Shown: positions 12 through 15,887 of the stretch, piece by piece
Position numbering within the stretch: the first letter of the stretch is position 1
Layout of the letters: each line of letters begins with the position of its first letter
Origin: a virus
Length of the DNA: 21,384 bases
IMG/VR virus record: IMGVR_UViG_3300010883_000601
Location: 1 to 21,384 of that record
Strand: one strand, 5' to 3'
The notes under the pieces: model-generated
The model's database searches: none
What the model saw: only the letters and a program-made list of their open reading frames with translations
What the model was told of the DNA's origin: nothing
Translations under genes and position numbers: made by a program

Positions 12-884
12 ATGCGTAAAGTAAAACACTCTAAATTCCGTAATACTGGCCTATTGTATGAATTTATACTTAGACAGATTACTACGGAAATTTTAGGAAA
101 AAATAAAAATAACAAAGCTACTGAAATAGTAAGAACTTATTTCAATGAGAACACAGGTTTAGGCCGTGAGTTGAATTTATATAGTTTATTGATGCAAAGA
201 AAATTCAAAGATGATAGAAAAGCCGAATATTTCGTAAATGAGGTTATTACCGAAAGAAAAAAGTTAAATAATTCTATTTTACGCAGAGAAAAATTTAACT
301 TAATTAAAACGATAAAAGAGAATTACGATATAAACAAATTTTTCTCATCAAAGGTACAAAATTATAAAACTTATGCATCTGTATATAAATTATTCGAGCA
401 TAATGTAATATCTCCGGAAGAAAAAACAGAATCACATTTTAATTTGGTAGAACACATAACTACAACAAATAAAGAAATTAAATTATCAGAAACAATTGGT
501 GGTACGGCATTACCAAAAGATGAAGATTTAAGAATCTTAACTTATAGAACTCTTTTAGAAAAATTTAATCAAAAATATTCTAAATTAAATTTACCTCAAA
601 AATCTTTACTGCGAGCATATATTAACAATGTATCTAATACTAATTCATTAAAAGAATATATTGAAAGAGTAACACCTGTTATGAAAAGAGATTTAAAAAA
701 ATATTCAAAAGGTATAACAGACAAAGTAGTAAAAATAAAATTAAAAGAAGCAATAAACTCAATTAGTAAATTTTGTAATACAGGAAAAACACAAATAGTA
801 AAAGACTCTGTAGTTGTTCAGACTATGAGATATATGGAACTCTTAAAAGAATTAAAGAAAAATGGCAACAAAAAAGTCGTTTAA
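12..884 (+). CDS. Conserved-looking hypothetical protein upstream of prohead genes
   Basis: A 290-residue Lys-rich, probably all-helical protein with no signal peptide or membrane segment. The N-terminus (KHSKFRNTGLLYEFILRQIT) resembles, from memory, uncharacterised proteins near the portal and protease genes of marine T4-like phages. I recognise no catalytic motif. The ATG follows a weak purine-rich stretch at the very left edge, and the 3' end overlaps the next gene by 23 bp, suggesting translational coupling. By position it could be a prohead-core or portal-associated protein; that role is inference only. Confidence 0.75.
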   Translation: MRKVKHSKFRNTGLLYEFILRQITTEILGKNKNNKATEIVRTYFNENTGLGRELNLYSLLMQRKFKDDRKAEYFVNEVITERKKLNNSILRREKFNLIKTIKENYDINKFFSSKVQNYKTYASVYKLFEHNVISPEEKTESHFNLVEHITTTNKEIKLSETIGGTALPKDEDLRILTYRTLLEKFNQKYSKLNLPQKSLLRAYINNVSNTNSLKEYIERVTPVMKRDLKKYSKGITDKVVKIKLKEAINSISKFCNTGKTQIVKDSVVVQTMRYMELLKELKKNGNKKVV

Positions 885-1551
885 TTCAATAATTCATCAA
901 CTGGTATATGAAATACTCGGTGAGGATGGAGAAGATTATACAGATGAGGAAGAGTTAGAAGAACTAACTACTACTGGTGATGCTGAAGGATATGAGACAC
1001 CATTTGCTTTTAATAAGGGTAAAAAAGGTAGTAAAAAGAATAAAAAGATTTCAACTAATAGTACGGGGTATAAATACTTTAAAGAAAATGTTTATGTAGG
1101 TTCTTTGAAAAATTTATTGTTTGAAAAGGAAAAATCGGGTGAAAGACCTAAACGGGAGCGTGGTGATGTATGGAAGAGAGAAAGTGGGGCATGGGCTGCA
1201 AAGAATAGTAAAGGTAATATTCAATCTTTTAAAGAGAAAGATGGAGCAGAAGCTTATGCTAAATCAAGAGGTGGCCAACACGGATTCAATAAAAAAGGTG
1301 AACCTAAAAAAGGTGGAGATACTAAACCACCAAAAAGTGGAGGTGATAAACCTACTCCAAAAAAGAAACCTACTCCAAAAAAGAAACCTACTCCAAAAAA
1401 GAAACCTACTCCAAAAAAGAAACCTGGTAGTAGTATGAAAGATTTATTCGGTAAAAAAGGTGGAGCATCAACTAGTCTTAATTTTAAAGACAAATTTAAA
1501 AGTGCAATTGATGATTTAGAACAACAAAAAAAGACAGATATTGACAAATGA
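862..1551 (+). CDS. Putative prohead core/internal protein with basic PTPKKK repeat tail
   Basis: 229 residues in several distinct parts. The N-terminus ends in EILGE (E21), a possible gp21 cleavage site, and is followed by an acidic patch (residues 21-35). Next comes a TTTGDAEGYETPFAF segment and a Lys-rich NSTGYK motif that I associate with marine T4-like phages. A region around residues 94-135 has Trp/Lys/Gly-rich spacing (VWKRESGAW...AAKNSKGN). The tail contains four perfect KPTPKK repeats (about 163-187) like histone H1 or nucleoid-protein tails. It sits where T4 has the small prohead core genes 67/68. A DNA-condensing internal protein or core component fits, but function is inferred. 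Stop and next start overlap (ATGA). Confidence 0.7.
   Translation: MATKKSFNSIIHQLVYEILGEDGEDYTDEEELEELTTTGDAEGYETPFAFNKGKKGSKKNKKISTNSTGYKYFKENVYVGSLKNLLFEKEKSGERPKRERGDVWKRESGAWAAKNSKGNIQSFKEKDGAEAYAKSRGGQHGFNKKGEPKKGGDTKPPKSGGDKPTPKKKPTPKKKPTPKKKPTPKKKPGSSMKDLFGKKGGASTSLNFKDKFKSAIDDLEQQKKTDIDK
1351..1422. repeat. Tandem repeat, 4 x 18 bp, in-frame
   Basis: Four perfect head-to-tail copies of cctactccaaaaaagaaa, each encoding Pro-Thr-Pro-Lys-Lys-Lys. The units are identical at third codon positions, implying recent slippage expansion. The repeat keeps three frames open, which creates spurious long reading frames on both strands here. Confidence 0.95.
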
Positions 1552-1688
1552 TAAATAAACAAAAATTAACAGAAGGTTTAGAGAAAAACGACATTAAAAT
1601 GATTAAATCGTTAATCAGAGATGTTGTAGCAGATATTTTACGAGACCTTTGGATTAAACGAGCTATGTGGAAGAAATCTACTAAGTAA
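1548..1688 (+). CDS. Small protein with possible gp21-cleavable leader
   Basis: A 46-residue reading frame whose ATG overlaps the previous stop (ATGA). A purine-rich AGGAG follows its stop and serves the next gene. The product begins MINKQKLTEG, with L-T-E|G after nine residues matching the gp21-type cleavage signature seen in many neighbouring genes. The rest is an amphipathic helix (SLIRDVVADILRDLWIKRAM). The tight coupling and the shared leader argue that it is real despite its size. Function unknown. Confidence 0.6.
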   Translation: MINKQKLTEGLEKNDIKMIKSLIRDVVADILRDLWIKRAMWKKSTK

Positions 1689-1700
1689 TAGGAGAAAAAA

Positions 1701-2111
1701 ATGTATAAATCAGATGGTGGTAAAAAACAAGTTCCAAGTAATACAATTTATGGTGGGAATGAGGGAACAGGTTCAAATGCTAAAAAAAATTATAATTATG
1801 CTGATATTCCTGCTCCTATGACAGTAACAGATAGACCTGACCATATTGTTATCAATGGTGATGCTGGTGGTGGGACATATATGTTTAAATATTCATCTAC
1901 AGGTTCTTTAGGTGACACAATACCAGCTGTTGCAACCAAACCAGGTGATGGTGATGGTCCTTGGGTAAGTGGTTCAATACATCCAGGTGAAGGTGGAGCT
2001 ATAAAATTAGAAATAAATCCAAATGCATGGAAAAGAGTAGGAGCACATGCAACAGGTAATACTGGTATAGCAGGTGAAGTGACATATGTTTACAGTAAAC
2101 AAGATAAATAA
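1701..2111 (+). CDS. Hypothetical Gly-rich beta-type protein
   Basis: 136 residues, rich in Gly, Thr, Tyr and Asn, with beta-strand-like character and no membrane segment or cysteines. An AGGAG 6-10 bases before the ATG supports the start. Its composition, unlike the Lys-rich helical neighbours, suggests a folded virion surface or decoration protein, but I recognise no family. It lies just before the protease gene and shows no gp21-type leader. Confidence 0.7.
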   Translation: MYKSDGGKKQVPSNTIYGGNEGTGSNAKKNYNYADIPAPMTVTDRPDHIVINGDAGGGTYMFKYSSTGSLGDTIPAVATKPGDGDGPWVSGSIHPGEGGAIKLEINPNAWKRVGAHATGNTGIAGEVTYVYSKQDK

Positions 2112-2125
2112 AGGAGATATAGATA

Positions 2126-2755
2126 ATGAATAAAAAATTAATAGTAGATTATATACCATTTGAAATAGATAGAAGCACTATAAATGAGTCTCTTTCAAAA
2201 AATAATGGTAGACTTATTGTAAAGGGTGTCCTTCAAAGAGTAAATGCTAAAAATCAAAATGGTAGAATCTACCCAAGAGATGTTTTAGTTAAAGAAGCTA
2301 AAAAGTATGCTCAAGAAAATATAGCAGAACGAAGAGCTCTAGGTGAATTAGACCATCCTGAATCTTCTGTTGTTAACTTAAATAACGCTTCTCATAATAT
2401 ACTTGAAATGCATTGGAAAGGTGATGATTTATTAGGAACTGTAGAAGTTCTTTCAACACCAAGTGGAAACATCTTAAAAGAATTATTTAAAAGTGGTATT
2501 AAATTGGGTATATCATCTCGTGGTTTAGGTTCAGTTGAAGAAGTAAATGAGGGTGATGAAAAAGATGGAGACGAAGAAAATCCAACAGTTAAAGTTAAAG
2601 ATGACTTTGAATTAATTGCATTTGACTTCGTATCAAACCCATCTACACACGGAGCTTTTATGAAACCATCTTCAATGAATGAGAGTACTGGAAATAGAAT
2701 ACAAACAACTTCAAAAGTAGAATCTATAATTAATGATATATTGAGAGGTGAATAA
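2126..2755 (+). CDS. 21: Prohead maturation protease, T4 gp21 family
   Basis: 209 residues, close to T4 gp21 (212). Family signatures are visible: KNQNGRIYPRDVL (42-54), the His-containing GELDHPES (73-80, His77), the Ser-containing GISSRGLGS (128-136, Ser130/131) and FDFVSNPS (166-173). His and Ser are the expected catalytic residues of this serine protease family, which cleaves scaffold, core and capsid proteins after [I/L]-x-E inside the prohead. The N-terminus has I-N-E21|S22, a plausible self-cleavage point. AGGAG precedes the ATG. The linker around residues 139-160 is acidic. This gene sets the interpretation of the [I/L]-x-E leaders in the downstream genes. Confidence 0.93.
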   Translation: MNKKLIVDYIPFEIDRSTINESLSKNNGRLIVKGVLQRVNAKNQNGRIYPRDVLVKEAKKYAQENIAERRALGELDHPESSVVNLNNASHNILEMHWKGDDLLGTVEVLSTPSGNILKELFKSGIKLGISSRGLGSVEEVNEGDEKDGDEENPTVKVKDDFELIAFDFVSNPSTHGAFMKPSSMNESTGNRIQTTSKVESIINDILRGE

Positions 2756-2756
2756 T

Positions 2757-3098
2757 ATGGATTATAAGAAAGTAATGGGGTATAGTAAAGAATTAAAAAA
2801 GAAAGTTGTTAAAGAAATAACTAAACCTCGTGTTAATGAAGTGATTAATTCTATTAAAGAAGAGTTTGGATATAAAAATAAAATAAACGAAACATTACCT
2901 GCACTTGGTAGAGAATATGATAATTATTCAAAAGCTAGAAAATTATATTTAAAATCTGTTATTGATTTAGAAAAAGCTGCTGGTAAAGTTGATAGAACAT
3001 TTGGTAAACAAATACAGAGTGTTTGGAAAAAAACTATAAGTAATAATATGAAGAAGTTTGACGATGCACTTAATGATGTATTGAGTAAATTACAATAA
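2757..3098 (+). CDS. Hypothetical Lys-rich helical protein, possible prohead internal protein
   Basis: 113 residues from the ATG at 2757. A GTG at 2748 would add three residues, but the GAGAGG at 2743-2748 is better spaced for the ATG, which lies just beyond the gp21 stop. The first 45 residues are highly basic and helical and end in I-N-E45|T46, a possible gp21 site. The remainder (YSKARKLYLKSVIDLEKAA) is helical. No family recognised. Immediate coupling to gp21 and the possible cleavage site suggest a packaged internal or core protein. Confidence 0.7.
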   Translation: MDYKKVMGYSKELKKKVVKEITKPRVNEVINSIKEEFGYKNKINETLPALGREYDNYSKARKLYLKSVIDLEKAAGKVDRTFGKQIQSVWKKTISNNMKKFDDALNDVLSKLQ

Positions 3099-3113
3099 TT
3101 AGGAGAAAATAAG

Positions 3114-3452
3114 ATGAAATTAACTAGAGGTAAATTAAAAAAAATGATTGCAGAAGAACTTTTAAAAGAAGGTTTTAAAGATGATGTGAAAGCATTTCAA
3201 TCAGAAGTAGGTCAAGCTGAAGCTGGATGGAAAGAGAAGTATTCTCAATTAGAAGTAAGAGAAAACTCTATGAAATCAGTAAATCGTGTTCATAGAAGTT
3301 TAAAAGCTGTAGTTGAAGGATTTAAAAAAATGCCAATGGAAGAAACTTTAGGTATGGTAGGTAAAGGGCATAGTAAGAAATTTCAAAATGCAATTAGTGT
3401 TCTTGAAGGTATACTTGAAGATACAGGTGGCTGGATAAAAGAGAATCACTAA
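3114..3452 (+). CDS. Candidate capsid-targeted internal protein
   Basis: 112 residues. The leader MKLTRGKLKKMIAEELLKEG is an amphipathic Lys/Leu helix ending in L-K-E19|G20, the gp21 cleavage signature. This design parallels the T4 internal-protein capsid-targeting sequence, a short N-terminal helix removed by gp21. The mature part is helical, possibly coiled-coil, with a Gly-rich patch near 80. AGGAG lies 8-10 bases before the ATG. It overlaps the next gene by one base. Function of the mature protein unknown. Confidence 0.75.
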   Translation: MKLTRGKLKKMIAEELLKEGFKDDVKAFQSEVGQAEAGWKEKYSQLEVRENSMKSVNRVHRSLKAVVEGFKKMPMEETLGMVGKGHSKKFQNAISVLEGILEDTGGWIKENH

Positions 3453-4516
3453 TGACACCCAAAGAACGCAAAATATTAAAGGAAATTGTTAAAAAACAAA
3501 TTTTAAAAGAGACTAATACACCTGATAAATTTTCAAAGTTAATTACAGAGAATTACAAAAATTGGGAAATAGGTAAAGTTATGACTTTTAAAGACAATCC
3601 TCCTTTTAAAACACCTAAACAGATAAGAGAAGAAAATCTTACAGAAGCTCCACAAAAAGGTAAGCATGTAGTATATTATGAAAAGGGTTCAAGTGGAAAG
3701 AAAGTTCTTGATGTTAAACCAAATTATAAGAGTGCTGCACTAGCAATGAATAAACATATGAATACTGGTAAATATGAGACTGTTGGTATTCAACATTGGG
3801 AATCTTGGAATAAAGTTGAATCACCAAAGATTAAAGAAGGAAAACTTACAGAAGCTAATTCTTCTAAATATATACAGGCTCATAATAAAATGTATAAAGC
3901 TTATGAGAACTTTGCTAGAGAAGTTATGAATTTAGCTAAAACTTCATCTAAATTAGATGGTGATAAAGTAGATGAAAAAATCATTTTAAAGAATTTCAAA
4001 AAGGATGTTATTCCATTTATATCTTTAATGAAAGGTTGGTTAAAGGGTAAAATGAGAGAATCTGTGAATGAAGGAAAACTTAAAGAAGGTAAGTTTTCAA
4101 AAGAACATATACATATGTTGAAATTGGCGTATGGAAGTCTTGATAAAATGAACCCATCTTCACCTACCTATAAGAAATTTATTAAGTTTTTAGAGAAGCT
4201 ACCTAAAGACCAATTGAAACAATTGGCGAATGCTGATATAAAATTTGTATCAATGTTAGCAAAGAATAGAATGAAAGAAGGAAAACTTACAGAAGCTAAA
4301 GAAACAATATTTGATGTTGCAGCTAAAGTAATGCAAGATTCACAGATGTATAATTACAAAAGTAGAAAAGGTATGGTAAAGGTAGATATGCAAACGGCAA
4401 ATCTATTAACAAAAGTATGGAAAAAAGTAAGTCCTAAAATGAAAAAACATTTAGCAGGAATGGGTGAAGCCAATCCAGCTGGGTTAGTTCAAACTTTATG
4501 GGCTGCAGCTAAATAG
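3452..4516 (+). CDS. Candidate internal-protein polyprotein with repeated gp21 sites
   Basis: 354 residues. The leader ends in L-K-E20|T21. Near-identical linkers then recur: NLTE65|A66, KEGKLTE134|A135, NEGKLKE212|G213 and KEGKLTE281|A282. Each ends in [I/L]-x-E then Ala or Gly, the signature cut by T4 gp21. Cutting at all of them would release modules of about 45, 69, 78, 69 and 73 residues. The modules differ in sequence: the second is Tyr/Lys-rich and beta-like (KGKHVVYYEKGSSGKK), the others are helical. The linkers are conserved at DNA level (25 bp identical in two). This fits a head polyprotein processed during maturation. Module functions are unknown and cleavage is predicted, not shown. 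Confidence 0.8.
   Translation: MTPKERKILKEIVKKQILKETNTPDKFSKLITENYKNWEIGKVMTFKDNPPFKTPKQIREENLTEAPQKGKHVVYYEKGSSGKKVLDVKPNYKSAALAMNKHMNTGKYETVGIQHWESWNKVESPKIKEGKLTEANSSKYIQAHNKMYKAYENFAREVMNLAKTSSKLDGDKVDEKIILKNFKKDVIPFISLMKGWLKGKMRESVNEGKLKEGKFSKEHIHMLKLAYGSLDKMNPSSPTYKKFIKFLEKLPKDQLKQLANADIKFVSMLAKNRMKEGKLTEAKETIFDVAAKVMQDSQMYNYKSRKGMVKVDMQTANLLTKVWKKVSPKMKKHLAGMGEANPAGLVQTLWAAAK
3833..3857. repeat. 25-bp linker repeat, copy 1
   Basis: In-frame 25-bp sequence encoding KEGKLTEA, identical at every base to 4274-4298 in the same gene. A diverged copy lies at about 4067-4090 and a partial one at about 3629-3649. Each marks a predicted protease linker between modules. Confidence 0.95.
4274..4298. 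repeat. 25-bp linker repeat, copy 2
   Basis: Second exact copy of the 3833-3857 sequence, again in frame and encoding KEGKLTEA at residues 275-282. Identity at synonymous positions while the flanking modules differ points to recent duplication or recombination at the linkers. Confidence 0.95.
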
Positions 4517-4525
4517 GAGATAGAA

Positions 4526-4846
4526 ATGATTAATATGAAAAAATTATTAAAAGAGGGATTTGCTTGGGAACGAAAGTTTGGTGAATCTCTTCCAACAGTA
4601 GCAGAAGTACAAAAAAAATATGAAGATAAATTAAAAAACGAAGCTCCTGACCAATTAGAAAGAGAAAAAGTTCCTGCAAATGTAAATAGATTTATGACTA
4701 AATTTATCGATACACTTAAAGGTGCAAAACTTACAAGAAATAAACAAAAAGCAATTCTCTTTAAAGTAGTCAAAGCTTTAAATATATCACCAAAAGAATT
4801 AGCTATGTATACACAAAGAGTTAAAAAAGGCTTGGAAAAAAGATGA
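4526..4846 (+). CDS. Candidate capsid-targeted internal protein
   Basis: 106 residues. A short leader MINMKKLLKE10|G11 carries the L-x-E|G signature of gp21 substrates. The C-terminal two thirds (NVNRFMTKFIDTLKG to the end) is a compact basic helical region. AGGAG at 4516-4520 supports the first ATG; a second ATG at 4535 would also keep the leader. Stop and next start overlap (ATGATGA). No family recognised beyond the leader. Confidence 0.72.
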   Translation: MINMKKLLKEGFAWERKFGESLPTVAEVQKKYEDKLKNEAPDQLEREKVPANVNRFMTKFIDTLKGAKLTRNKQKAILFKVVKALNISPKELAMYTQRVKKGLEKR

Positions 4847-5139
4847 TGAAATTGAAATCTTTATTATTAACAGAAAAAAGGAAAATGGGTGATAAACAAC
4901 TAATGTCGATTAAACAAATGACAGATAGAAACAATCACACAGAAAACAGAAAAAAATTATCAAGTTTGATGGGAAATGATAAGTTAGCTCAATTCTATAA
5001 AGCTATGGCTACACTTAATTTAGTATTTAATGGTACTAACGCTGAAATGAATAAACTTAATCAAAAGATGGAAAAAGAATTTTATAAACAGATAAAAAAA
5101 TCTTATGCAAATGCGGAAGAGATTATAGGATTATTTTAA
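4843..5139 (+). CDS. Candidate capsid-targeted internal protein
   Basis: 98 residues. Two adjacent ATGs (4843 and 4846) overlap the previous stop; the second gives MKLKSLLLTE, closely matching the leader of the next gene (MKLKDLLVE) and so is perhaps the true start. Predicted gp21 cut is L-T-E|K. The remainder is a helical region rich in Lys, Asn and Met. Its stop shares one base with the next ATG (TAATG). Function unknown. Confidence 0.72.
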   Translation: MMKLKSLLLTEKRKMGDKQLMSIKQMTDRNNHTENRKKLSSLMGNDKLAQFYKAMATLNLVFNGTNAEMNKLNQKMEKEFYKQIKKSYANAEEIIGLF

Positions 5140-5486
5140 TGAAACTTAAAGATTTATTAGTAGAAGGTGTGACAAGTAAATACGCTGCTATATATCAAAT
5201 GAAAGAAGAGATGAAGAGTGGGAAGTTCGACCCCAAGAATCCGACAGTTAGTGTTAATGGTCTTGGAGTATATAATTTAAAATTATTAGAAAAAGTAATT
5301 AAGAGAGATTTAGGTAAAGCTGTAAATAATTTAGGGTATGAAAGTGGTATTAATAATTTAATGTATCACTTATATAAAGATAAATCACCATTAGGTTCAA
5401 AAATAAAAGGATTACACGAGGTATACCAACAGATGAATACATCACAATATAAGAGAGCTGTAACGATGTATAAGCGGAGAAAATAA
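5139..5486 (+). CDS. Candidate capsid-targeted internal protein
   Basis: 115 residues. The leader MKLKDLLVE9|G10 matches the gp21 signature and is nearly the same as that of the gene before it. The rest is a basic helical domain with Gly turns (VNGLGVYNLKLLEKVIKRDL) and a strongly basic C-terminus (MYKRRK). Start overlaps the upstream stop by one base. Packaged DNA-associated protein is a reasonable inference; no family recognised. Confidence 0.73.
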   Translation: MKLKDLLVEGVTSKYAAIYQMKEEMKSGKFDPKNPTVSVNGLGVYNLKLLEKVIKRDLGKAVNNLGYESGINNLMYHLYKDKSPLGSKIKGLHEVYQQMNTSQYKRAVTMYKRRK

Positions 5487-6137
5487 ATGGCTAAAGAAAA
5501 TTTTAATGCAAAAAATAAAAGTGGTAAAAAGGGTACATATAGTATGAATGAACGCAAGAATGCAGCTCGACCTATATCTCGTACACCACAAAATAGACAA
5601 ACCCCTGGTGGCTTAATTAATAAACCTTTTCGTTGGTCTTGGTTAGATGATGGTGGTATGAGTAAAGTGAAAGGTGCATTTTGGATGGGTAATCCAAATT
5701 CAAGTATGTTTCAGCAATGTGATTGTAGATGCAGCTGCGATGTACCAACAGAAGCATTAACAATGCCCGATGGTACTCTATGTCCTACTTCATCACCATA
5801 TGGTGGATATAAATTTGTTCAAGAACCTCATCCTATCGGACATATGGATGATTGGAATTATGGATGGGGAATGCAGCATGGACTTGACAATTGTGATAAT
5901 ATAACATCTGGTGGCACTGCAAATAGATATTGTCATTTTGAACAACTTGGAGTAAATGATGGATTCTCAATTGATTTTAATGGTGTAGAAACTTCTGATG
6001 AATGTTCAGATTTATGTGGGAATCATTGTTTAAATAACTCTGATGAATGTGGAGAGCTGTATGGTTTATGTGGAGCTCCAACTGCCCCTGGACCACGACC
6101 AAGAGGTAGAAATGGTGGAACAGGTGGACAATATTGA
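5487..6137 (+). CDS. Cys-rich protein with MAKENF leader
   Basis: 216 residues. The N-terminus MAKENFNAKNKSGKK is basic and shared with small proteins at 16806 and 17134, and resembled by 16650. The rest is rich in Gly, Asp, Asn, Trp and Tyr with 12 cysteines, including clusters CDCRCSC (about 78-84), DECSDLCGNHC and DECGELYGLC. The C-terminus is Pro/Arg/Gly-rich. Clustered Cys suggest metal binding or disulfides in a secreted or virion-exposed protein. It carries no gp21-type leader, so it interrupts the run of candidate internal proteins. Starts immediately after the previous stop. Role unknown. Confidence 0.72.
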   Translation: MAKENFNAKNKSGKKGTYSMNERKNAARPISRTPQNRQTPGGLINKPFRWSWLDDGGMSKVKGAFWMGNPNSSMFQQCDCRCSCDVPTEALTMPDGTLCPTSSPYGGYKFVQEPHPIGHMDDWNYGWGMQHGLDNCDNITSGGTANRYCHFEQLGVNDGFSIDFNGVETSDECSDLCGNHCLNNSDECGELYGLCGAPTAPGPRPRGRNGGTGGQY

Positions 6138-6796
6138 AAATAACCGAATTACAGATAAGAGAAATTATTAAAAAAGTTATTTCGGAAAAAAGAGATTACA
6201 AAGATGAATACAAGAAATTTCAATCATCTACTAAATCTAAAAAGTACCGAGCAGAATTAAATGCCTATAATAGAAAAAAAGGTACTTATGGTAATGGTGA
6301 TGGTTTAGATGCATCACATAAGAATGGTAAAATTGTAGGGTTTGAAGAGCAATCGAAGAATAGAGGAAGAGCTGAAAAGAGTAGATTAAAGAAAGAAGGG
6401 AAACTTGATGAACTTGGTGGGTTTAGTATAGATGGTAGTACTGATTTTAATGATACTTATATAGCTCCAAAGAGAGATACATCAAAAGGTGATATGAAAA
6501 CATTTTATCAAAAGTTTTCATCTCCTGAAGCTAAAAAAGTAGTAGATGGTAAGTTAGCTGACTATGTTAAGGGGTTAAGAAAATTAGAAGGTAAGTTGGT
6601 TAAAGATTGGATGACAGCTGCTAAATCAGGTAATATTGACTTTTTTGATTTAATGAGAGGATTCAATACTGGTGATGTTCAAAGAGCACATAAATTTGAA
6701 ATAGATTTTTTAACAGGTGTACTACAAAGAGATAAAATACAAGACAGATTTAGAAGTTACTTCAAAGGTAAAAAAGGTAAACATAGAGGAAAATAA
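6134..6796 (+). CDS. Candidate internal protein with HNH-like segment
   Basis: 220 residues from a TTG start that overlaps the previous stop (TTGA), with AGGTGGA at 6122-6127 as ribosome site. The leader ends V-I-S-E18|K19. Residues 21-86 (RDYKDEYKKFQ ... YGNGDGLDASHKNG ... SKNRGRAEKSR) have the D-x-S-H ... N-R spacing reminiscent of HNH endonucleases: D59, H62, N64, N76, R77. A KKEGKLDE93 linker like that of the 3452-4516 protein follows. The C-terminal part (94-220) is helical and very basic at the end. The HNH reading is tentative because the full metal-binding set is not obvious. A protein cut into two packaged parts would fit. Confidence 0.72.
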   Translation: MKITELQIREIIKKVISEKRDYKDEYKKFQSSTKSKKYRAELNAYNRKKGTYGNGDGLDASHKNGKIVGFEEQSKNRGRAEKSRLKKEGKLDELGGFSIDGSTDFNDTYIAPKRDTSKGDMKTFYQKFSSPEAKKVVDGKLADYVKGLRKLEGKLVKDWMTAAKSGNIDFFDLMRGFNTGDVQRAHKFEIDFLTGVLQRDKIQDRFRSYFKGKKGKHRGK

Positions 6797-7083
6797 TGGC
6801 TATTACTAACAAAGAAATATGTGAACGATTGCAATGTATTGAAAATAGACTACCAAATGGTGAACTTTTAGAAATACACGAAAATGTCAAAGAAATTAAA
6901 GAAATTCTTTTAGACCCCGAAGATGGTGTTATTGTCCGTGTTAATAAAAACACATATTGGAGAAAAGAAATCGACTCAGACGAATTTAAAGCATTATTAA
7001 GATGGAAACAAGGTGTAACACACGCGATGTGGGTTGCTTACACAGCATTAATAGGAATTATAGTAAAAATAATATTTTTTTAA
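6796..7083 (+). CDS. Small membrane protein, XhlA-like architecture
   Basis: 95 residues. An N-terminal heptad-like helix (about 4-38, IENRLPNGELLEIHENVKEI) and a GVIVRVNKNTYWRK segment are followed by one C-terminal hydrophobic span (about 76-94) ending in FF. Cytoplasmic coiled coil plus C-terminal anchor is the layout of XhlA-type proteins that help holins. It lacks the gp21-type leader. It shares one base with the upstream stop. A lysis role is possible but not demonstrated; membrane anchoring is the safe statement. Confidence 0.7.
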   Translation: MAITNKEICERLQCIENRLPNGELLEIHENVKEIKEILLDPEDGVIVRVNKNTYWRKEIDSDEFKALLRWKQGVTHAMWVAYTALIGIIVKIIFF

Positions 7084-7110
7084 TACTTATAGTATATAGG
7101 AGACAATAAA

Positions 7111-7677
7111 ATGGCAAAACTAAAATCACTTTTAGAAGATGTTCTAAAAGAAACAAGAAGAAATAAAAGACACGAAACTATCGAGAGTGTAAGAGGGTAT
7201 GGTGGATTAGGTAGTGGATTATATAAAAATAATGTACTTGAAGTTGCATCAAAATTATCTGAAATAGCAGATGCTGCACATTCTCATATAATCGGTGAAA
7301 ATGATGAATGGTTTGATAAGATAACCGTTAATAAAAATATGAAATCACTAAAAGGTAGTGTTTCAGAATTTAAAAAAGCTGCTCTTGAATCACATAGATT
7401 AAATCAAAGAATGACTGCTTTATATGAAGATATGGGTGGAGTTCTGAATCGTTATTATGACATAGATGAAGGTCTACTTGAAGGTGACAAAGGTGATATG
7501 GATAACGATGGTAAAGACGAACCAGATGATGAAGAATATATGGATAACAAAGACAAAGCTATTAAAAAAGCAATGGGTGAGACTTACGCTAATATATCAA
7601 AAAGACCAACTAAAAGACTAAAAGATATTAATAGTGTAGTTGGTATTGGTGTTGTAGGTAATTCATTTAAGAAATAG
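7111..7677 (+). CDS. Candidate capsid-targeted protein with Ca-loop-like motif
   Basis: 188 residues. Leader MAKLKSLLEDVLKE14|T15 matches the gp21 signature. A central helical domain (about 65-118, EWFDKITVNKNMKSLKG ... LYEDMGGVLNRYYDI) resembles a region I remember from uncharacterised marine T4-like proteins. Another possible site L-L-E124|G125 precedes D129-M-D131-N-D133-G-K-D136, the DxDxDG pattern of EF-hand or dockerin calcium loops, and an acidic patch. The C-terminal 30 residues are basic. AGGAG precedes the ATG. Probably packaged and cut in two; function unknown. Confidence 0.76.
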   Translation: MAKLKSLLEDVLKETRRNKRHETIESVRGYGGLGSGLYKNNVLEVASKLSEIADAAHSHIIGENDEWFDKITVNKNMKSLKGSVSEFKKAALESHRLNQRMTALYEDMGGVLNRYYDIDEGLLEGDKGDMDNDGKDEPDDEEYMDNKDKAIKKAMGETYANISKRPTKRLKDINSVVGIGVVGNSFKK

Positions 7678-8028
7678 ATGATAGAACTTTATCATCATCT
7701 AGAACATTTGATGATGTACAGTTTATTATTATGGCAATGTACATTGAGTGTTTGGTTAATCTTAAAGTGGATTAACAAAAATTGGAAGACAAAAAAGACA
7801 TTTTCTGTTATGTCTCCAACAGAGAGTAAACAACCAATTATAAATATAGATGGTTCTTCTATTAGTGGAATGTCTACCACTAAAAAGAATATGGGACCAA
7901 TCGATGTAGATATACAAAAAAATATAGTAGTAGGTGATGTTGATAAATCAGATTTAAGTAAATCGACTGATATAACAAAAGGTAAAGTTAAAACACAGAA
8001 GGATAAGCTGAGGAGTTTAAGAAAATGA
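7678..8028 (+). CDS. Membrane-anchored protein with DVDIQ C-terminal module
   Basis: 116 residues. One hydrophobic span at about 10-31 (LMMYSLLLWQCTLSVWLILK) is followed by a polar, Ser/Thr/Lys-rich tail. The tail IDVDIQKNIVVGDVDKS ... KVKTQKDKLRSLRK matches the C-terminus of the soluble protein at 17599 (IEVDIQREIAIGNVDIS ... KVNTSKLKKLKALRK). The ATG directly follows the previous stop. The shared tail suggests a common binding partner, with this copy tethered to the membrane. Function unknown. Confidence 0.68.
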   Translation: MIELYHHLEHLMMYSLLLWQCTLSVWLILKWINKNWKTKKTFSVMSPTESKQPIINIDGSSISGMSTTKKNMGPIDVDIQKNIVVGDVDKSDLSKSTDITKGKVKTQKDKLRSLRK

Positions 8029-8231
8029 AAAAATCATTTAAAGAAACATTAAAAAACATAGGTGGTGGTCATCTACTTAAAGAAGCTTCTGGTAAAGTTT
8101 CGGTAGGATTTTCAAATACAATGGGTGCCTTATATGTAAGTAAAGGTAATCAAAAGACGGTTGAATTAAAGAAAGCTGATGTTGAAGAGATTATAAAGCA
8201 GTATAAAAAATTTAAAAGTAAAATGGACTAA
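8025..8231 (+). CDS. Small candidate internal protein
   Basis: 68 residues. The N-terminus MKKSFKETLKNIGGGHLLKE20|A21 ends in the gp21 signature followed by Ala, the favoured T4 context. The short mature part (about 48 residues) has a beta-like half (GKVSVGFSNTMGALYVSKG) and a Lys-rich helix. It overlaps both neighbours (ATGA at the start, TAATG at the end). No family recognised. Confidence 0.7.
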   Translation: MKKSFKETLKNIGGGHLLKEASGKVSVGFSNTMGALYVSKGNQKTVELKKADVEEIIKQYKKFKSKMD

Positions 8232-8515
8232 TGAATATAAGTAAAGAGGATATATTGGAAATTATTAAAGAGGAAATTCAAAAAATTAATGAAGGTCCAA
8301 GAGATTTTATCCATCATAGTCAAGCAAAGTTTTTACAAGTACCTAAAAATGATATAAATAAAGTAGGTAAACTACTTAAAAAATTTAAATGGCAGGTTGA
8401 AGTTGATACAAAACCTGTTAGAGTACCAGGGCATATTAAAGTAACTACAACAAAAAAAATCTATAATAATGTTCTTGAAATTTTAATGAAAAATAATATA
8501 AAAGTAAGAGGTTAA
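8231..8515 (+). CDS. Small candidate internal protein
   Basis: 94 residues. The leader MNISKEDILEIIKEEIQKIN ends at E21|G22, with I-N-E|G as gp21 signature. The mature part is about 73 residues, basic, with alternating beta and helix (VGKLLKKFKWQVEVDTKPV ... IKVTTTKKIYNNVLEILMK) suggesting a small folded alpha/beta domain. Start shares one base with the preceding stop. Function unknown. Confidence 0.72.
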   Translation: MNISKEDILEIIKEEIQKINEGPRDFIHHSQAKFLQVPKNDINKVGKLLKKFKWQVEVDTKPVRVPGHIKVTTTKKIYNNVLEILMKNNIKVRG

Positions 8516-8518
8516 TAT

Positions 8519-9553
8519 ATGGCTAAGGGTTTAGATTGTGGGACATCGTTTTATATAGCAGCTACAGACAAGAGTATAAAAAAACAAAGAAATGCGTTTT
8601 TAACAGTAGATGGTGAAGCTGCACAAGTAAAACGAATGTTAAAAAGACAGAGTATTCCATTTGTGGAAAAAGCAGGTAAAGTTCACATTGTTGGACAACA
8701 CGCATTTAATTATGCACAGATATTTAATACGACAGAATTAAAAAGACCTATGAAAAGTGGTCTTCTTAATCCTCAAGAACGAGATGCATTACCAGTACTA
8801 AATGCAATAGTTGGTGAATTATTAGGTAAAGCTAAAAAAGATGAAGTGTGTGTTTATTGTATACCTTCAAAACCAATTGACCAAGACAGGGAAGTTTCGT
8901 ATCACGAAGATGTATTAAGGACTATTATAGGTGGATATGGATATGATGTTAAAGTTATTGAAGAAGCAGTTGCAATAGGTTATGAGGGACTTGTAGATAA
9001 TAATCTTACAGGTATAGCTATTTCAATGGGAGCTGGTATGTGTAACATTGCTGTTATGTATGCTGGCATGTCAGCATTATCATTTTCAGTAGCTAGAGGT
9101 GGTGACTGGATTGATATTAATAGTGCAAACGATTGTGGTGTATCAACATCAAAAGTAACAGCAGTTAAAGAAAATTCAAATCAATTAGATTTGACACAGA
9201 GTAAAATACAAGATATTTATGAAGAGGGAACTGCAGAACAAAATATAGTTAATGCTATTCGTTCTTATTATGGAGCTCTTATAAATTATCTTTTAACAAA
9301 TTTAAAAAATCAATTTGAAAATACAGATAACATGCCAAACTTTCCAGATAAGATACCAATTGTTATTGGTGGTGGAACAGCATTAGTAAAAGGATTTTTA
9401 GATGTATTTCACGAGCAATTTGATGCTGAGAAATTTCCAATACCAATTAGTGACATAGTATTAATAGAAGACGCTCATACAGCAGTCTCAAGAGGCTGTT
9501 TAAGTGAAGCACAACTCATAGAGGAGGAACAAAGTGAGAAAGACAACAGTTAA
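8519..9553 (+). CDS. Actin/MreB/Hsp70-fold ATPase
   Basis: 344 residues, the usual size of prokaryotic actins. Fold motifs in order: phosphate-1 GLDCGTS (4-10), a strand-helix region with CVYCIPSKP (111-119), connect-1-like EEAVAIGYEGL (148-158), phosphate-2-like SMGAGMCNIAV (169-179), ARGGDWID (192-199) and adenosine motif IVIGGGTALVKGF (281-293). In phosphate-2 the usual Asp of DxGxGT is Ser169, so nucleotide chemistry may differ. No leader or membrane segment. It lies between the internal-protein island and the scaffold gene. Filament formation, host-cell positioning or chaperone-like head assembly are possible; only the fold is well supported. Its end overlaps the next gene by 20 bp. Confidence 0.85.
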   Translation: MAKGLDCGTSFYIAATDKSIKKQRNAFLTVDGEAAQVKRMLKRQSIPFVEKAGKVHIVGQHAFNYAQIFNTTELKRPMKSGLLNPQERDALPVLNAIVGELLGKAKKDEVCVYCIPSKPIDQDREVSYHEDVLRTIIGGYGYDVKVIEEAVAIGYEGLVDNNLTGIAISMGAGMCNIAVMYAGMSALSFSVARGGDWIDINSANDCGVSTSKVTAVKENSNQLDLTQSKIQDIYEEGTAEQNIVNAIRSYYGALINYLLTNLKNQFENTDNMPNFPDKIPIVIGGGTALVKGFLDVFHEQFDAEKFPIPISDIVLIEDAHTAVSRGCLSEAQLIEEEQSEKDNS

Positions 9554-9815
9554 AGAAGTCAAACAATGGATGAGAACTCTTGAAGAGAACAGATATAAGA
9601 AAACTTATGCATCTGATGCTCGTAGAGTTTCTTGGATGGTAAATAATAACTTATCTGAAGATTATGAAGCTATGCCTACAACTATGAGAAAAAAATGGTC
9701 TAAGGCAGCATATGGAAGAGAAAGATTTCTTGCAAAGGAATTTGTAAAACATAAAAAAGCAGAACAGAAATTGAGAGAATCGATTAGAAAAGTATTAAAA
9801 GGTTTATTAAATTAA
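9534..9815 (+). CDS. Small basic hypothetical protein
   Basis: 93 residues from a GTG start, chosen because a strong GAGGAGG (9521-9527) sits 6-7 bases upstream inside the end of the actin-like gene. The protein is basic and helical with aromatic motifs (RRVSWMVNNNLSEDYEAMP, KAAYGRERFLAKEF). Its C-terminus (LRESIRKVLKGLLN) is an amphipathic Lys/Leu helix similar in style to the leaders of the island. T-L-E-E near residue 17 is only a weak gp21-like site. The overlap implies co-translation with the actin-like protein. Function unknown. Confidence 0.75.
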   Translation: MRKTTVKEVKQWMRTLEENRYKKTYASDARRVSWMVNNNLSEDYEAMPTTMRKKWSKAAYGRERFLAKEFVKHKKAEQKLRESIRKVLKGLLN

Positions 9816-10234: not shown

Positions 10235-11377
10235 ATGAGTGATATTTTAAAAGAAGCTATCGCGGATGCTAAAGCAGTTAGAGAAACAGCTTTACAAAAC
10301 GCAAAGATGGCATTACAAGAAGCATTCACTCCTCAACTTAAATCTATGCTTTCTGCAAAACTTAAAGAAGACGATATGGATGATGAAGATGATGTAGCTA
10401 TGGATGATGAAATGGGCGATGAAGAGGAAGAAGAAGTTCCTGCTGAATATGCCGATACTGATGAAATGGCTGACTATTCTGAAGACGAAATGGAAGACGA
10501 AGAAATGGGTGGCGAAGAAGATATGGGTGACGAAGAAATGGGTGACGAGGAAGGCGAAGAAGATATGGAATCTGAAAGCCTTGAACTTGAAGACATTATT
10601 CGTGAACTAGAAGATGAATTATCAGCTGATGGTGAAGAAGAGGGCGAAGAGGAAGTAGACGAGACTATTGAAGTTAATGGTGTTCGATATGCTCCAATTC
10701 GTGAAGGTGAAGATAAAGAAGATGAAGAAGAAATCGATGAGATACAGAAAAAAGGGCGTCCTGGTTACCTTAAAAAAGGTGAAGCAGACCCTGATACAGC
10801 TGCATCTGCAGGCGATTCTGTAAACGAATCTAACGAAGAGTATGAAATTAGTGATACTTTATTTGAGGAAGATGAAGATGATGATGATGATGAAGAAGTA
10901 GACGAAGGAAAAACACCATCTGTATCTTCTAACATAGGCAAGGGTGGTAATCCAGATACGAACTACGCTCCTACTGAAGACCCAGGTAAAAATAAAATTT
11001 CAGAAATAGTAACTGAGTTAGCAGAATACAAAGAAGCAGTACATTTCTTGAAAGATAAACTTCACGAAGTGAACATCTTGAATGCTAAACTATTATTCAC
11101 AAATAAATTGTTTAAAGAATATGCTCTTGATAACAATCAGAAATTAAAAGTAGTCGAAACTTTTGATAGAGCACAATCTACAAGAGAGATTAAACTTGTT
11201 TATTCTACACTTGCAGAACAATTTACAGATAATAGTAATATAATTAACAGAAAATCAATAACCGAATCAGCTAGTGCTAAATCAGGTTCAACTAAACCTT
11301 CTAAAGGGTCACGAAAAGTGATTTCTGAAGAAAGTCAAGTTGCTAATCGATTTAAGAAATTAGCTGGTATCTTATAA
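10235..11377 (+). CDS. 22: Prohead scaffold/core protein, T4 gp22-like
   Basis: 380 residues, longer than T4 gp22 (269) because of a large Asp/Glu-rich region (about 46-225). The order is N-terminal helix MSDILKE7|A8 with LQEAF a little later (both gp21-type sites), acidic low-complexity core, then a conserved-looking helical C-terminal region (about 253-325, EYKEAVHFLKDKLHEVNILN ... STREIKLVYSTLAEQF) and end ANRFKKLAGIL. Position directly before the capsid gene, acidic core and terminal helix fit the major scaffold, assembled inside the prohead and digested by gp21. GGAG precedes the ATG. Confidence 0.85.
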   Translation: MSDILKEAIADAKAVRETALQNAKMALQEAFTPQLKSMLSAKLKEDDMDDEDDVAMDDEMGDEEEEEVPAEYADTDEMADYSEDEMEDEEMGGEEDMGDEEMGDEEGEEDMESESLELEDIIRELEDELSADGEEEGEEEVDETIEVNGVRYAPIREGEDKEDEEEIDEIQKKGRPGYLKKGEADPDTAASAGDSVNESNEEYEISDTLFEEDEDDDDDEEVDEGKTPSVSSNIGKGGNPDTNYAPTEDPGKNKISEIVTELAEYKEAVHFLKDKLHEVNILNAKLLFTNKLFKEYALDNNQKLKVVETFDRAQSTREIKLVYSTLAEQFTDNSNIINRKSITESASAKSGSTKPSKGSRKVISEESQVANRFKKLAGIL

Positions 11378-11391
11378 TTGGAGAATAAATA

Positions 11392-13098
11392 ATGTCAAAT
11401 TACATTAACGAAGCGTTGTTAGACGCTAGTCCTTATAGGAAACAGAAAGATGAAGCCGGCAAACTCGTGTCAAAATGGGAAAAAACTGGCCTTCTTGAAG
11501 GTCTTAATGAGGATTTTAACAAAAGTGGAATGGCAGTTCTTCTTGAAAACCAAGCTAGACAGTTGATTAACGAGTTTAATACAACTTCACCGTCTGGTAC
11601 TGGAACAAGTAATCAAGAAGAATGGTCAGGTGTAGCTCTACCACTAGTACGAAGAATATTTTCTTCTATAGCTGCACAAGACTTTGTGTCAGTTCAACCA
11701 ATGAACTTACCATCTGGTCTAGTATTTTACTTAGACTTTAAATATGGTACTACACAAAATGGTTTTACAAAAGGTAAATCTGTATTTGGTGATACAGGTC
11801 CTTTAACAACATCAGGTTCAACTGCTCCTTATGGTGTAGGTGGATTTTATGGTGATAACGATAAAAATGGTAACATACCTGGATATGACTATACTATCAG
11901 TCAATCAGCTGTTATACCTACTGCAAGTAATTGGAGCTGGGAATCAATAGCAGTGGCAGACCATACAGTATCAGGAGCTATTGCTTTTGATTTTGATGCA
12001 GAATTATCTGCATCAGTATTAGCTGCTAAAGCTGTTGATACTTGGTTTAAAGTACATATACCTATTGGTGATTTACCAAATGCTGATTTTAAAGCTATTA
12101 GAAGCTTTCATATTGGTGGTAGTGGTTCAGCTGCAGGTCTTACAGATGGTACAGCTGTATCAGCTTCAATACCTCAATTGACTAAACTATCAGCTGACGG
12201 TGGATATGTTTCATTCGTAATAAACGCTGATTCTGAAGCTGATGTTGAACAAGATTCAGGTCTTCAAGTTGTTTATTCAAAACAACCTACTGCTGAAAAC
12301 AGAGGTGACTTTGAAGATAGATTAGGTCATTCTGATGATGGTATAGACTTAAGCATACCTCAAGTAGACCTACAACTTAATAGTTTATCTATTGTCGCTA
12401 AGACTCGTAAGCTAAAAGCTGTATGGACTCCTGAGTTAGCTCAAGACTTGAATGCTTATCACTCAGTTGATGCTGAAGCTGAATTAACTTCAATGTTAAG
12501 TGAATATATTTCAATGGAAATTGATTTAGAAATACTTGATATGTTAGTTACTGATGCTGTAACAACTGATTACTGGTCAGCTAGACCTGGTAATGACTTT
12601 AACTCTGCTACAAACACATTTGAAAACACTACCTTCACAGGTACTCGTTTTGAGTGGTGGCAGACACTTGTTGGTAAGGTACAGAAAGTATCTAACGAAA
12701 TTCATAGATTAACATTAAGAGGTGGAGCTAACTTTGTAGTTTGTGGTCCTAAGATTGCTACTATATTAGAATCTCTACCAGGCTTTATGGCTGATACTGA
12801 TGGAAATCAAATGAACTTCGCAATGGGTGTTCAAAAAGTGGGTGGATTACAAAGTAGATTTAATGTCTATAAAAATCCATATATGGCTGAAAACACAATG
12901 TTAGTTGGTTTCAGAGGAGGAAACTTCTTAGAAACTGGTGCTGTGTATGCTCCATATGTTCCATTGATTATGACACCTCTTGTATATGACCCAGAAGACT
13001 TTACACCAAGAAAAGGTGTAATGACTAGGTACGCTAAGAAAATGGTACGACCTGAGTTTTATGCTAAGATTCATTGTACTGACTTAAACCTAATATAA
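11392..13098 (+). CDS. 23: Major capsid protein, T4 gp23 family
   Basis: 568 residues (T4 gp23: 521). The block ALPLVRRIFSSIAAQDFVSV followed by QPMNLPSG aligns by eye with the T4 segment VMGMVRRAIPNLIAFDICGVQPMNSPTG. Near the C-terminus PLIMTPLVYDPEDFTPRKG and MTRYAKKMVRPEFY are typical. The N-terminal about 61 residues look like the removable delta peptide, ending L-I-N-E61|F62, where Phe after the cut is unusual compared with Ala in T4. Forms the hexameric shell after scaffold removal. GGAG precedes the ATG. A strong hairpin follows the stop. Confidence 0.95.
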   Translation: MSNYINEALLDASPYRKQKDEAGKLVSKWEKTGLLEGLNEDFNKSGMAVLLENQARQLINEFNTTSPSGTGTSNQEEWSGVALPLVRRIFSSIAAQDFVSVQPMNLPSGLVFYLDFKYGTTQNGFTKGKSVFGDTGPLTTSGSTAPYGVGGFYGDNDKNGNIPGYDYTISQSAVIPTASNWSWESIAVADHTVSGAIAFDFDAELSASVLAAKAVDTWFKVHIPIGDLPNADFKAIRSFHIGGSGSAAGLTDGTAVSASIPQLTKLSADGGYVSFVINADSEADVEQDSGLQVVYSKQPTAENRGDFEDRLGHSDDGIDLSIPQVDLQLNSLSIVAKTRKLKAVWTPELAQDLNAYHSVDAEAELTSMLSEYISMEIDLEILDMLVTDAVTTDYWSARPGNDFNSATNTFENTTFTGTRFEWWQTLVGKVQKVSNEIHRLTLRGGANFVVCGPKIATILESLPGFMADTDGNQMNFAMGVQKVGGLQSRFNVYKNPYMAENTMLVGFRGGNFLETGAVYAPYVPLIMTPLVYDPEDFTPRKGVMTRYAKKMVRPEFYAKIHCTDLNLI

Positions 13099-15023: not shown

Positions 15024-15887
15024 ATGGCTTACAATCGTAATAGAAAAATGAATGCTGGTAGAAAGGCATCGTCAAGACCAAATTTCAGGAAAGCAGCACC
15101 GTCTCAAACCCCAAGAATGCAACAAATGGGTAAAACGAATAGAGTACAAACAGTAGATTATATGGGAGCAACATTTAGAGTTTCAATGAACCCAATGAGA
15201 CCGGGTAGTGGTACTTTTACTTTAGTAAGAGGTAATTTGAATGGTGTAAAAATTCCAGGAGGTGTCAAACCAGGTAATGAATATATGGGATGGCCTGGAG
15301 AAAAACCAGATGATGGTGGTAATGAATCGGATTGTTTTAGTAGAAATTCTATTGTTAAATTAGAAAATGGAAATAATATTTCAATAAGTAAATTAAAAAT
15401 TGGTGATAAAGTAAAAACTATTAATAAGAATGGTAAAACAGAGTATTCAGAAGTTTATGCTTGGTTCCATAAATCGTATGAAGATTATCGTGATGATTAT
15501 ATAAATGTTAAAACTGAAGATAATACTTTAACAATAACACCGCAACATAGAATATTTGTAAATGATGTAGATAGTCCAGCTTCAGATATAAAAGTTGGTG
15601 ATACTATAAGTGGTCAGAAAGTTACAAGTGTAGATAGTATTACTGCATATGGTAAATATGCACCAGCAACAAAAAATGGATTTATTGTCGTTGATGGTAT
15701 AAATTGTTCTTGTTATGCATTTTATAGTCATAACTTCTGTCATGCAATGGTAAATGTATTATTAAAACCTCTTGTTAAACTTGTTCCTTCATTAGGTTCT
15801 TGGTTAGGTAAAGATGGTATTAATAAATTTTGTGCACCATTTATGAAAGATAGAACAATTGGAAGATTAATAACTAAATTAGGATAA
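15024..15887 (+). CDS. Hedgehog-type Hint domain protein
   Basis: 287 residues. Residues 1-103 are a basic tail plus a Gly/Pro-rich region; a Hint domain follows from Cys104. Motifs in order: C104-F-S at the start, IVKLENGNNISISKLKIGDK (110-129), T172-P-Q-H175 (the TxxH catalytic pair), IKVGDTISG (189-197), YAPATKNGFIVVDG (212-225) and C228-S-C230-Y-A (228-232), with His240 after it. The YAP-x-T...G...VVDG...SCYA pattern is that of hedgehog autoprocessing domains rather than inteins. Such domains rearrange the peptide bond before the first Cys to a thioester and release or esterify the N-terminal part. A 47-residue tail follows. It sits between neck genes; AGGAG precedes the ATG. Activity and purpose are inferred. 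Confidence 0.85.
   Translation: MAYNRNRKMNAGRKASSRPNFRKAAPSQTPRMQQMGKTNRVQTVDYMGATFRVSMNPMRPGSGTFTLVRGNLNGVKIPGGVKPGNEYMGWPGEKPDDGGNESDCFSRNSIVKLENGNNISISKLKIGDKVKTINKNGKTEYSEVYAWFHKSYEDYRDDYINVKTEDNTLTITPQHRIFVNDVDSPASDIKVGDTISGQKVTSVDSITAYGKYAPATKNGFIVVDGINCSCYAFYSHNFCHAMVNVLLKPLVKLVPSLGSWLGKDGINKFCAPFMKDRTIGRLITKLG

Follow-up and report, generated by a model that had tools for sequence, protein, structure and literature searches.

The stretch of DNA considered here (IMG/VR record IMGVR_UViG_3300010883_000601, positions 1 to 21,384; all 21,384 nucleotides are called the window below) is a fragment of an uncultivated virus with T4-type head genes on the + strand, and it is the head-gene region of a marine T4-like phage. 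Ten small genes near that for the prohead protease gp21 begin with a short leader ending in [LI]-x-E, and very likely they belong to a T4-type system of capsid targeting and gp21 processing that has been enlarged into a cassette of cargo genes, whose products we infer to be packaged and cut. At the level of sequence, the shared leader, its fixed spacing, the conserved Glu at its end, the unrelated mature parts, the linkage to gp21 and the recurrence of modules joined at x-E junctions are all established. The gap between genes 21 and 22 measures 7,479 base pairs (bp) in the window, compared with 30 bp in T4, 71 bp in Prochlorococcus phage P-SSM2, 43 bp in Methylophilales phage Melnitz-3 and 384 bp in Flavobacterium phage immuto, and the leader genes of the window lie mostly within it. 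A near-identity DNA search of the window against phage records gave no match.

Leader genes of the window

The initial annotation proposed that ten small open reading frames (ORFs, named here by their first base; Table 1) share a cleavable leader. All ten are present from the starts it assigned, nine of them with ATG; the tenth, 6134, has a TTG that overlaps the preceding stop, and a relative (L002:9054) has ATG at the same position. Each of the ten has [IL]-x-E followed by Gly, Ala, Thr or Lys, with the Glu at residue 8 to 21. This loose motif heads 10 of the 16 genes of the region when 1.42 are expected (2000 shuffles per N-terminus, none of which reached 10), and one of 19 genes elsewhere in the window (0.65 expected). 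A stricter, amphipathic rule that demands hydrophobic residues two, three and six positions before the Glu is satisfied by six (3114, 4526, 5139, 6134, 7111 and 8231; 0.63 expected), while 1548, 3452, 4843 and 8025 are supported by the looser motif and by homology. The Leu codons of the shared core vary from gene to gene (CTT, TTG, CTA, TTA), so the likeness of the leaders is maintained at the protein level, and recent DNA duplication of the leader is rejected. Nine of the ten mature products have isoelectric points of 8.2-10.4, the remaining one 6.1; T4 internal proteins are likewise basic (PMC9026906).

Conservation in homologues bears the proposal out. The Glu and the leader are retained at an identity of only 28-60% in the mature part, as in nearly all 11 copies of the 4843 family and also in the 3114, 5139 and 1548 families. 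In relatives the 1548 module forms the C-terminal part of a longer protein, behind a VNE, LGE or VTE site. ORF 6134 contains a second site, GKLDE (ends 6412), that divides two modules, the first of which matches phrog_6437 (1.6e-13) and recurs in 16 polyproteins of relatives. No homologue was found for the mature part of 8025, and leaders of its type, IGGGHL[LV]xE, head other proteins in loci L069 and L039. The 7111 family, with 27 copies, is the most widespread leader family among the relatives, many of which have Asp in place of Glu at the cut position; because Asp there permits targeting and blocks cutting in T4, such members may be packaged uncut.

A second shared N-terminus, M[AK][KR]ENF[NK]xK, was observed without an [LI]xE site in the window ORFs 5487, 16650, 16806, 17134 and 17335. 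These proteins are small and often Cys-rich, one of them lies inside the leader cassette, and they are possibly another virion-related family.

Frequency, register and location of the leader in relatives

The relatives comprised 80 IMG/VR loci with a related gp21 and seven longer contigs, together giving 1190 + strand ORFs, and the control was 120 loci of arbitrary viral contigs (1433 ORFs). The core of the leader is M-x-K-L-K-x-[LI]-[LI]-x-E. Searched for in the strict form M-x(0-4)-[KR]-[LIM]-x-x-[LI]-[LIM]-x(1-2)-E, it heads 76 of the 1190 ORFs, whereas shuffling predicts 1.2 (200 shuffles, at most 5 in any of them). It starts at an internal Met in 2 of 5370 cases, and none of the 1433 ORFs of arbitrary contigs has it. 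The sequences behind the leader had been described as unrelated, and the mature parts of the 76 indeed make up 25 unrelated families.

When hydrophobic-x-x-hydrophobic-hydrophobic-x-E was scanned for without bias as to register, the counts peaked with the Glu at residue 10 (78 ORFs), 14 (49) and 18 (16), with 0-11 at every other position; arbitrary contigs have no such peaks (9, 6 and 3). Steps of four in leader length suggest a single docking helix extended by whole turns. In 59 of 72 leaders of the clade the Glu stands exactly at 10, with Leu or Met at 4 and Leu or Ile at 7 and 8, and the residue before the cut is Glu in 69 of 96 leaders, Asp in 7 and Gln in 6.

These positions agree with what has been mapped in T4 internal protein III (IPIII), where the first ten residues are enough for packaging, targeting acts mainly via residues 4 and 7 and processing via 8 and 10, and Asp at 10 prevents cutting, not targeting (PMC9026906). 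The marine consensus, M-I-K-L-K-D-L-L-x-E, places its invariant or hydrophobic residues at exactly 4, 7, 8 and 10, a register identical to that of the T4 ipIII and gp24 N-termini. Of the window leaders, which run to 9-21 residues, 4526 is in the T4 register and the others fit by a helix-turn shift. The likely motif of the cognate protease is given independently of the leaders by gp23, since all 13 gp23 proteins of the clade have an N-terminal hydrophobic-x-E at the place of the T4 cut at residue 65.

Clustering near gp21 was found as well, leader ORFs making up 23% of ORFs at 0-3 kilobases (kb) and 29% at 3-7 kb downstream of gp21, and 1.3-1.5% in the 10 kb upstream. The attribution to gp21 and capsid targeting is thus supported by the S77 protease within the cluster, the gp23 sites, the conserved Glu, the clustering, the spread of the leader over dozens of unrelated proteins and the T4 IPIII register.

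Beyond 10 kb upstream the share of leader ORFs rises again to 12%, a second cluster past the terminase. A leader-bearing NUDIX hydrolase-like gene (L099:14901-15329, about 9 kb upstream of gp21) and a leader-bearing zeta-toxin-type kinase gene (L091:10750-11514, about 18 kb upstream) were seen in this second cargo cluster. Proteins of 1133 and 1593 residues encoded upstream of the terminase (L085, L101-L102; G001, G006) begin MNKLVEEIIKPILE, with the predicted cut directly behind it, and hold several more [LIVMF]xE sites; a relative in the cultured Microcystis phage Mel-JY01 is annotated as cytidylyltransferase-like.

Polyproteins and shuffled modules

The count of ten small proteins was too low, because ORF 3452, whose leader was recognized, appears to be a polyprotein made up of some six pieces. 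At least five internal sites had been overlooked in it, the last three being EGK-L-x-E linkers, and one in 6134. Relatives contain the modules of 3452 in different orders, joined at x-E, and a larger version (L096) has 698 residues and nine modules; no counterpart of the large polyprotein was found in 50,697 phage records, and ORF 3452 itself has no Pfam domain. Only DUF3008 came above or near its cut-off in the relatives' polyproteins.

The relatives have 89 internal linkers of the EGKLxE type where shuffling predicts 16.6, and two or more such linkers occur in each of 14 proteins (0.2 expected). Module seeds occur in 46 arrangements, and some modules also stand alone as leader genes. The module AKETIF[DH], for instance, sits behind KKKLKE, LEGKLSE, GESINE and EGKLTE in settings unrelated to one another; RR(E/Q)LE(I/V)H follows MEGKLTE within a polyprotein and a leader in G006. 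Of 325 junctions examined in a masked change-point test, 35 had a shared Glu at the edge of homology. This is 2.7 times the rate expected from homology alone, and no other tested residue exceeded 1.3 times. Cutting of the polyproteins at the linker sites is probable. A search of solved structures found no relatives of the RDYK module.

Cargo behind the exact tag

A scan of IMG/VR for the pattern MIKLKD[LF][LF]xE gave at least 127 matches; the counts that follow are among the matches listed. Of these, 123 are at plausible N-termini, and the 117 proteins with at least 50 residues represent at least 57 mature families. Pfam recognizes NUDIX in four, a zeta-toxin-type kinase in two, and phage lysozyme, ART-PolyVal and MPTase-PolyVal in one each; the gp21-centred relative set independently yields a leader-bearing zeta-toxin-type kinase and a NUDIX protein. 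One tagged protein resembles 2H phosphoesterases of the 2'-5' RNA ligase/Acb1 type, with two HxT motifs and E-values of 6e-5 and 5e-4, below the curated cut-offs. The S77 protease is encoded in 10 of 21 long tag-bearing contigs, compared with one of 16 arbitrary long contigs.

The 2H-phosphoesterase-like protein (L322:10674-11222) has the leader MIKLKDLLTE and weakly matches 2'-5' RNA ligase as well as Acb1, which acts against CBASS (cyclic-oligonucleotide-based antiphage signalling); a virion-carried counter-defence enzyme is a possible reading of it. It found no relatives among solved structures. The largest family behind the exact tag consists of proteins of about 300 residues with the motif (N/D)xWYPAHT...SFH[IV]T (L245, L253, L258 and 14 others). 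They are perhaps ADP-ribosyltransferase-like, and their single match among solved structures, WW domain-binding protein 4 (E-value 0.008), is weak and probably due to chance.

Leaders that resemble the scaffold tail

The gp22 scaffold proteins of the clade mostly end in F[KR]KLAG[IL]. A small gene of immuto begins MKKQILSEQFRRMQKLAGIITE, with the predicted cut behind it, which is almost identical to the gp22 tail of the same phage, IISEVSEQVSRWQKLAGIIK. In the product of immuto 111675-112139 the predicted cut falls behind RMQKLAGIITE. A scan for MQKLAGI found 64 C-terminal cases, of which 52 are identified as gp22 because they end 16-61 bases before gp23, and 13 leaders at N-termini, the majority of which read ..SE.FxRMQKLAGI[IL][TS]E. 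The targeting leader of this sister group therefore appears to be a scaffold tail with a cut site added. For the window's own clade the resemblance between KLAGIL and KLKDLL is only suggestive. Mimicry of the scaffold tail offers a concrete hypothesis for the binding partner of the capsid-targeting sequence.

The stand-alone gene at 9534 encodes a C-terminus, IRKVLKGLLN, that has some likeness to the gp22 tail and is perhaps a C-terminal targeting signal.

Alternative explanations

The leader might owe its appearance to composition, in proteins rich in Lys, Leu, Ile and Glu. A motif so short is by itself expected in one or two of 16 genes, but the 10 observed were reached in none of 2000 shuffles and the relatives have 76 in place of 1.2; with the arbitrary-contig control these shuffles refute chance, the probability of which we regard as negligible. 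Also very improbable is some other function of the shared N-terminus (in membrane or nucleoid localisation, as a context for translation initiation, or in turnover), with the Glu there by coincidence. An amphipathic N-terminal helix could bind membranes unaided, and the genes are AT-rich and their proteins rich in Lys and Leu; set against this are a Glu fixed at the leader end, a spacing quantised at 10, 14 and 18, the identical [LI]xE in gp23 and at internal module junctions, the correspondence with the T4 IPIII mapping and the lack of the leader in arbitrary viral contigs. A more serious alternative, although we consider it unlikely, is that the leaders bring assembly or scaffold parts, like T4 gp67 and gp68, into the prohead core, and that these are then cut, mostly disappear and play no part once the host is infected. 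T4 core proteins are likewise gp21-cut and mostly removed (PMC9026906), and the 7111 family, which is conserved and mostly helical with an acidic Asp-rich stretch in its 27 copies, looks like a core protein and may be one rather than an effector. The cargo as a whole varies between phages and has NUDIX, kinase, 2H-phosphoesterase and lysozyme domains, a content that fits enzymes more readily than scaffold, and one leader is shared by at least 57 families. As to the polyproteins, 3452 and its relatives might be ordinary multidomain proteins kept whole, with the EGKLTE linkers as flexible spacers. Their cleavage is a prediction, some junctions lack a clean [LI]xE, and other phages package polyvalent proteins uncut, as with the virion RNA polymerase of phage N4 (PMC5512222). 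We nevertheless find this doubtful, given that the linkers end in the x-E of the leaders, that linkers (89 against 16.6) and multi-linker proteins (14 against 0.2) are so far in excess, and that some modules also exist as single genes, with a leader that stops at the same residue.

Several observations count against targeting followed by gp21 cutting. The longer leaders of 3452, 8025 and 8231 and the short one of 1548 are less uniform than the 10-residue class, and some members of leader families carry Asp or Gln instead of Glu. No S77 protease is seen in 11 of the 21 long leader-bearing contigs; in three of these gp23 is present and the place where gp21 would be expected falls at or past a contig end, eight have neither, and all may be fragments. 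A phrog_207 search of the leader contigs without S77 gave no match, and its controls gave no response either. The excess of Glu in the masked change-point test is supportive but modest, and a cruder count of [LIVMF]xE at the starts of homology (87 of 701) was not accepted as proof, since the rate is much the same at positions within homologous stretches. The AlphaFold models are too poor to use, both for the RDYK module (predicted local distance difference test, pLDDT, 53; predicted template modelling score, pTM, 0.24) and for the 7111 family (pLDDT 56, pTM 0.29).

Proposed mechanism and significance

In the capsid-targeting reading, the 7.5 kb between gp21 and gp22, genes that nearly touch in T4, would serve as a cargo cassette. 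The short amphipathic helix at the N-terminus would dock each product to the prohead core, with residues 4 and 7 of the 10-residue form as targeting positions and [LI]-x-E as the leader end. Once the shell closes, gp21 would cut behind the Glu, remove the leader and free the cargo inside the capsid. For 3452, one leader would import a string of small modules that gp21 then separates at the linkers. The mature cargo would remain with the DNA, probably be co-injected and, more speculatively, meet host defences or reprogramme the host. Injection with a role in host take-over or counter-defence is slightly favoured, based on the enzyme types in the cargo and the T4 precedents for injected proteins, IPI* against a restriction enzyme and Alt (PMC3012670, PMC5512222).

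It is about an even chance that marine T4-like phages generally load their virions in this manner, a detachable 10-residue tag, or in a sister group a copied scaffold tail with a cut site behind it, bringing in many unrelated proteins and polyprotein strings that the head protease frees as effectors for injection, counter-defence enzymes among them. The phage proteins that enter a host with the DNA, before phage gene expression, are mostly unknown outside a few model phages. If the proposal is true, the tag would allow virion-delivered effectors to be recognized by sequence in metagenomes and would permit genome-wide prediction of packaged effectors in a widespread group of ocean phages; it already selects NUDIX, zeta-toxin-type kinase, ADP-ribosyltransferase-like and 2H-phosphoesterase/Acb1-like proteins. 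A head protease employed to part polyproteins in this way would be unusual.

Features and neighbouring genes

Table 1. Predicted features of the window; a slash marks a predicted cut, which otherwise follows the last residue of the leader
Feature	Coordinates	Strand	Remarks
Weaker leader candidate	862..1551	+	MATKKSFNSIIHQLVYEILGE/DG; Lys/Pro repeat-rich basic protein; meets amphipathic rule
Leader gene	1548..1688	+	MINKQKLTE (1548-1574); mature 37 residues
gp21-type prohead protease, Peptidase_S77	2126..2755	+	PF03420 E-value 1.5e-30; phrog_207 6e-51
gp21 own N-terminal cut	ends 2188		after residue 21, TINE/S; IxE/S present in relatives' N-termini
Leader candidate	2757..3098	+	KINE/TLPALGREYDNY, cut ends 2891; matches relatives' INE/GPAYEYKKH junction
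Leader gene	3114..3452	+	MKLTRGKLKKMIAEELLKE (3114-3170); mature 93 residues
Leader-bearing polyprotein	3452..4516	+	leader 3452-3511
Cuts in 3452	end at 3511, 3550, 3646, 3853, 4087, 4294		ILKE, LITE, NLTE, KLTE, KLKE, KLTE
Leader gene	4526..4846	+	MINMKKLLKE (4526-4555); mature 96 residues
Leader gene	4843..5139	+	MMKLKSLLLTE (4843-4875); mature 87 residues; 11 copies in relatives
Leader gene	5139..5486	+	MKLKDLLVE (5139-5165); mature 106 residues
Leader gene, TTG start	6134..6796	+	MKITELQIREIIKKVISE (6134-6187)
Leader gene	7111..7677	+	MAKLKSLLEDVLKE (7111-7152); mature 174 residues
Leader gene	8025..8231	+	MKKSFKETLKNIGGGHLLKE (8025-8084); mature 48 residues
Leader gene	8231..8515	+	MNISKEDILEIIKEEIQKINE (8231-8293); mature 73 residues
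Stand-alone gene without N-terminal leader	9534..9815	+	same module inside leader-bearing polyproteins of L236 and L239
gp22-type scaffold	10235..11377	+	homology to gp22 of related phages; position before gp23
gp22 C-terminus KKLAGIL	11354-11374		peptide reused as leader by sister phages
gp23 major capsid protein	11392..13098	+	PF07068 E-value 4.8e-77
gp23 cut	ends 11574		after residue 61, LINE/F; T4 counterpart at residue 65

Other genes of the window deserve mention. An actin-like protein of the Volactin family (8519-9553; PF25216, E-value 1.4e-73) is encoded between the cargo cassette and gp22 and has homologues in 18 sequences of the relative set. A protein with a Hint domain, of the hedgehog/intein self-splicing type (15024-15887; PF01079, E-value 5.2e-28), lies in the phage late gene block. 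Just upstream of the cluster, after the portal gene, the gene at 12-884 (its product begins MRKVKHSKFRNTGLLYEF) is a conserved, unnamed head gene, present in essentially all relatives including immuto and Mel-JY01; it matches no family beyond a weak DUF7403. Relatives of gp21 occur in three contigs of metagenome-assembled genomes labelled Pelagibacter, Alphaproteobacteria and Bacteriovorax; the three labels disagree and may be binning errors, so that assignment of a host from them was dropped and no host is claimed.

Comparison with known systems

That T4-like phages load diverse proteins via a capsid-targeting leader is known, and the idea of the leader as a general loading mechanism has been published (PMC9026906). 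In the literature searched, which included few subscription papers and is weak evidence for absence, we found no gp21-adjacent cassette of this size, no steps in leader length, no exact tag on 57 families including enzymes, no polyproteins with gp21 linkers and no leaders copied from the scaffold tail. A virion proteome of this clade was looked for and none was found.

Two other groups of packaged proteins invite comparison. Many inner-head proteins of the giant phages phiKZ, 201phi2-1 and SPN3US are likewise cut behind Glu by the prohead protease, and N-termini can be shared, as in gp53 and gp54 of SPN3US (PMC5694885). The cut is at A-x-E in SPN3US and the propeptides of the group often exceed 100 residues (PMC5694885), whereas the window leaders have [LI]xE and 9-21 residues, and show neither the S/A/G-x-E cut nor the long propeptides of the phiKZ type. 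The polyvalent proteins of phages and conjugative elements are also multi-module chains predicted to be packaged and injected (PMC5512222), and the ART-PolyVal and MPTase-PolyVal domains each match one leader protein of relatives. They often carry a protease domain of their own (PMC5512222), whereas the modules here are small, unnamed and parted by head-protease sites, and ORF 3452 does not combine named effector and peptidase domains in one chain.

The closest likeness is to T4 itself. IPI, IPII, IPIII and Alt (Mullaney and Black; reviewed in PMC9026906 and PMC3012670) have an N-terminal propeptide of 10-20 residues ending in [LI]xE, and the internal proteins share with the marine leaders the hydrophobic residues at 4, 7 and 8 and Glu at 10 in the 10-residue form, diverse basic mature parts and an S77 protease. 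The gene order gp20-gp21-gp22-gp23 is common to T4, P-SSM2, Melnitz-3 and immuto. In immuto, a cultured relative whose host is Flavobacterium sp. LMO8, there are single leader genes, one copying the gp22 tail, where the window has a large cassette instead. The T4 internal protein genes lie about 30-40 kb from gp21, whereas the window has a dense cassette of many more genes adjoining it; lengths quantised at 10, 14 and 18, polyproteins with internal sites and, in relatives, leaders on recognisable enzymes set this system apart from the internal proteins of T4.

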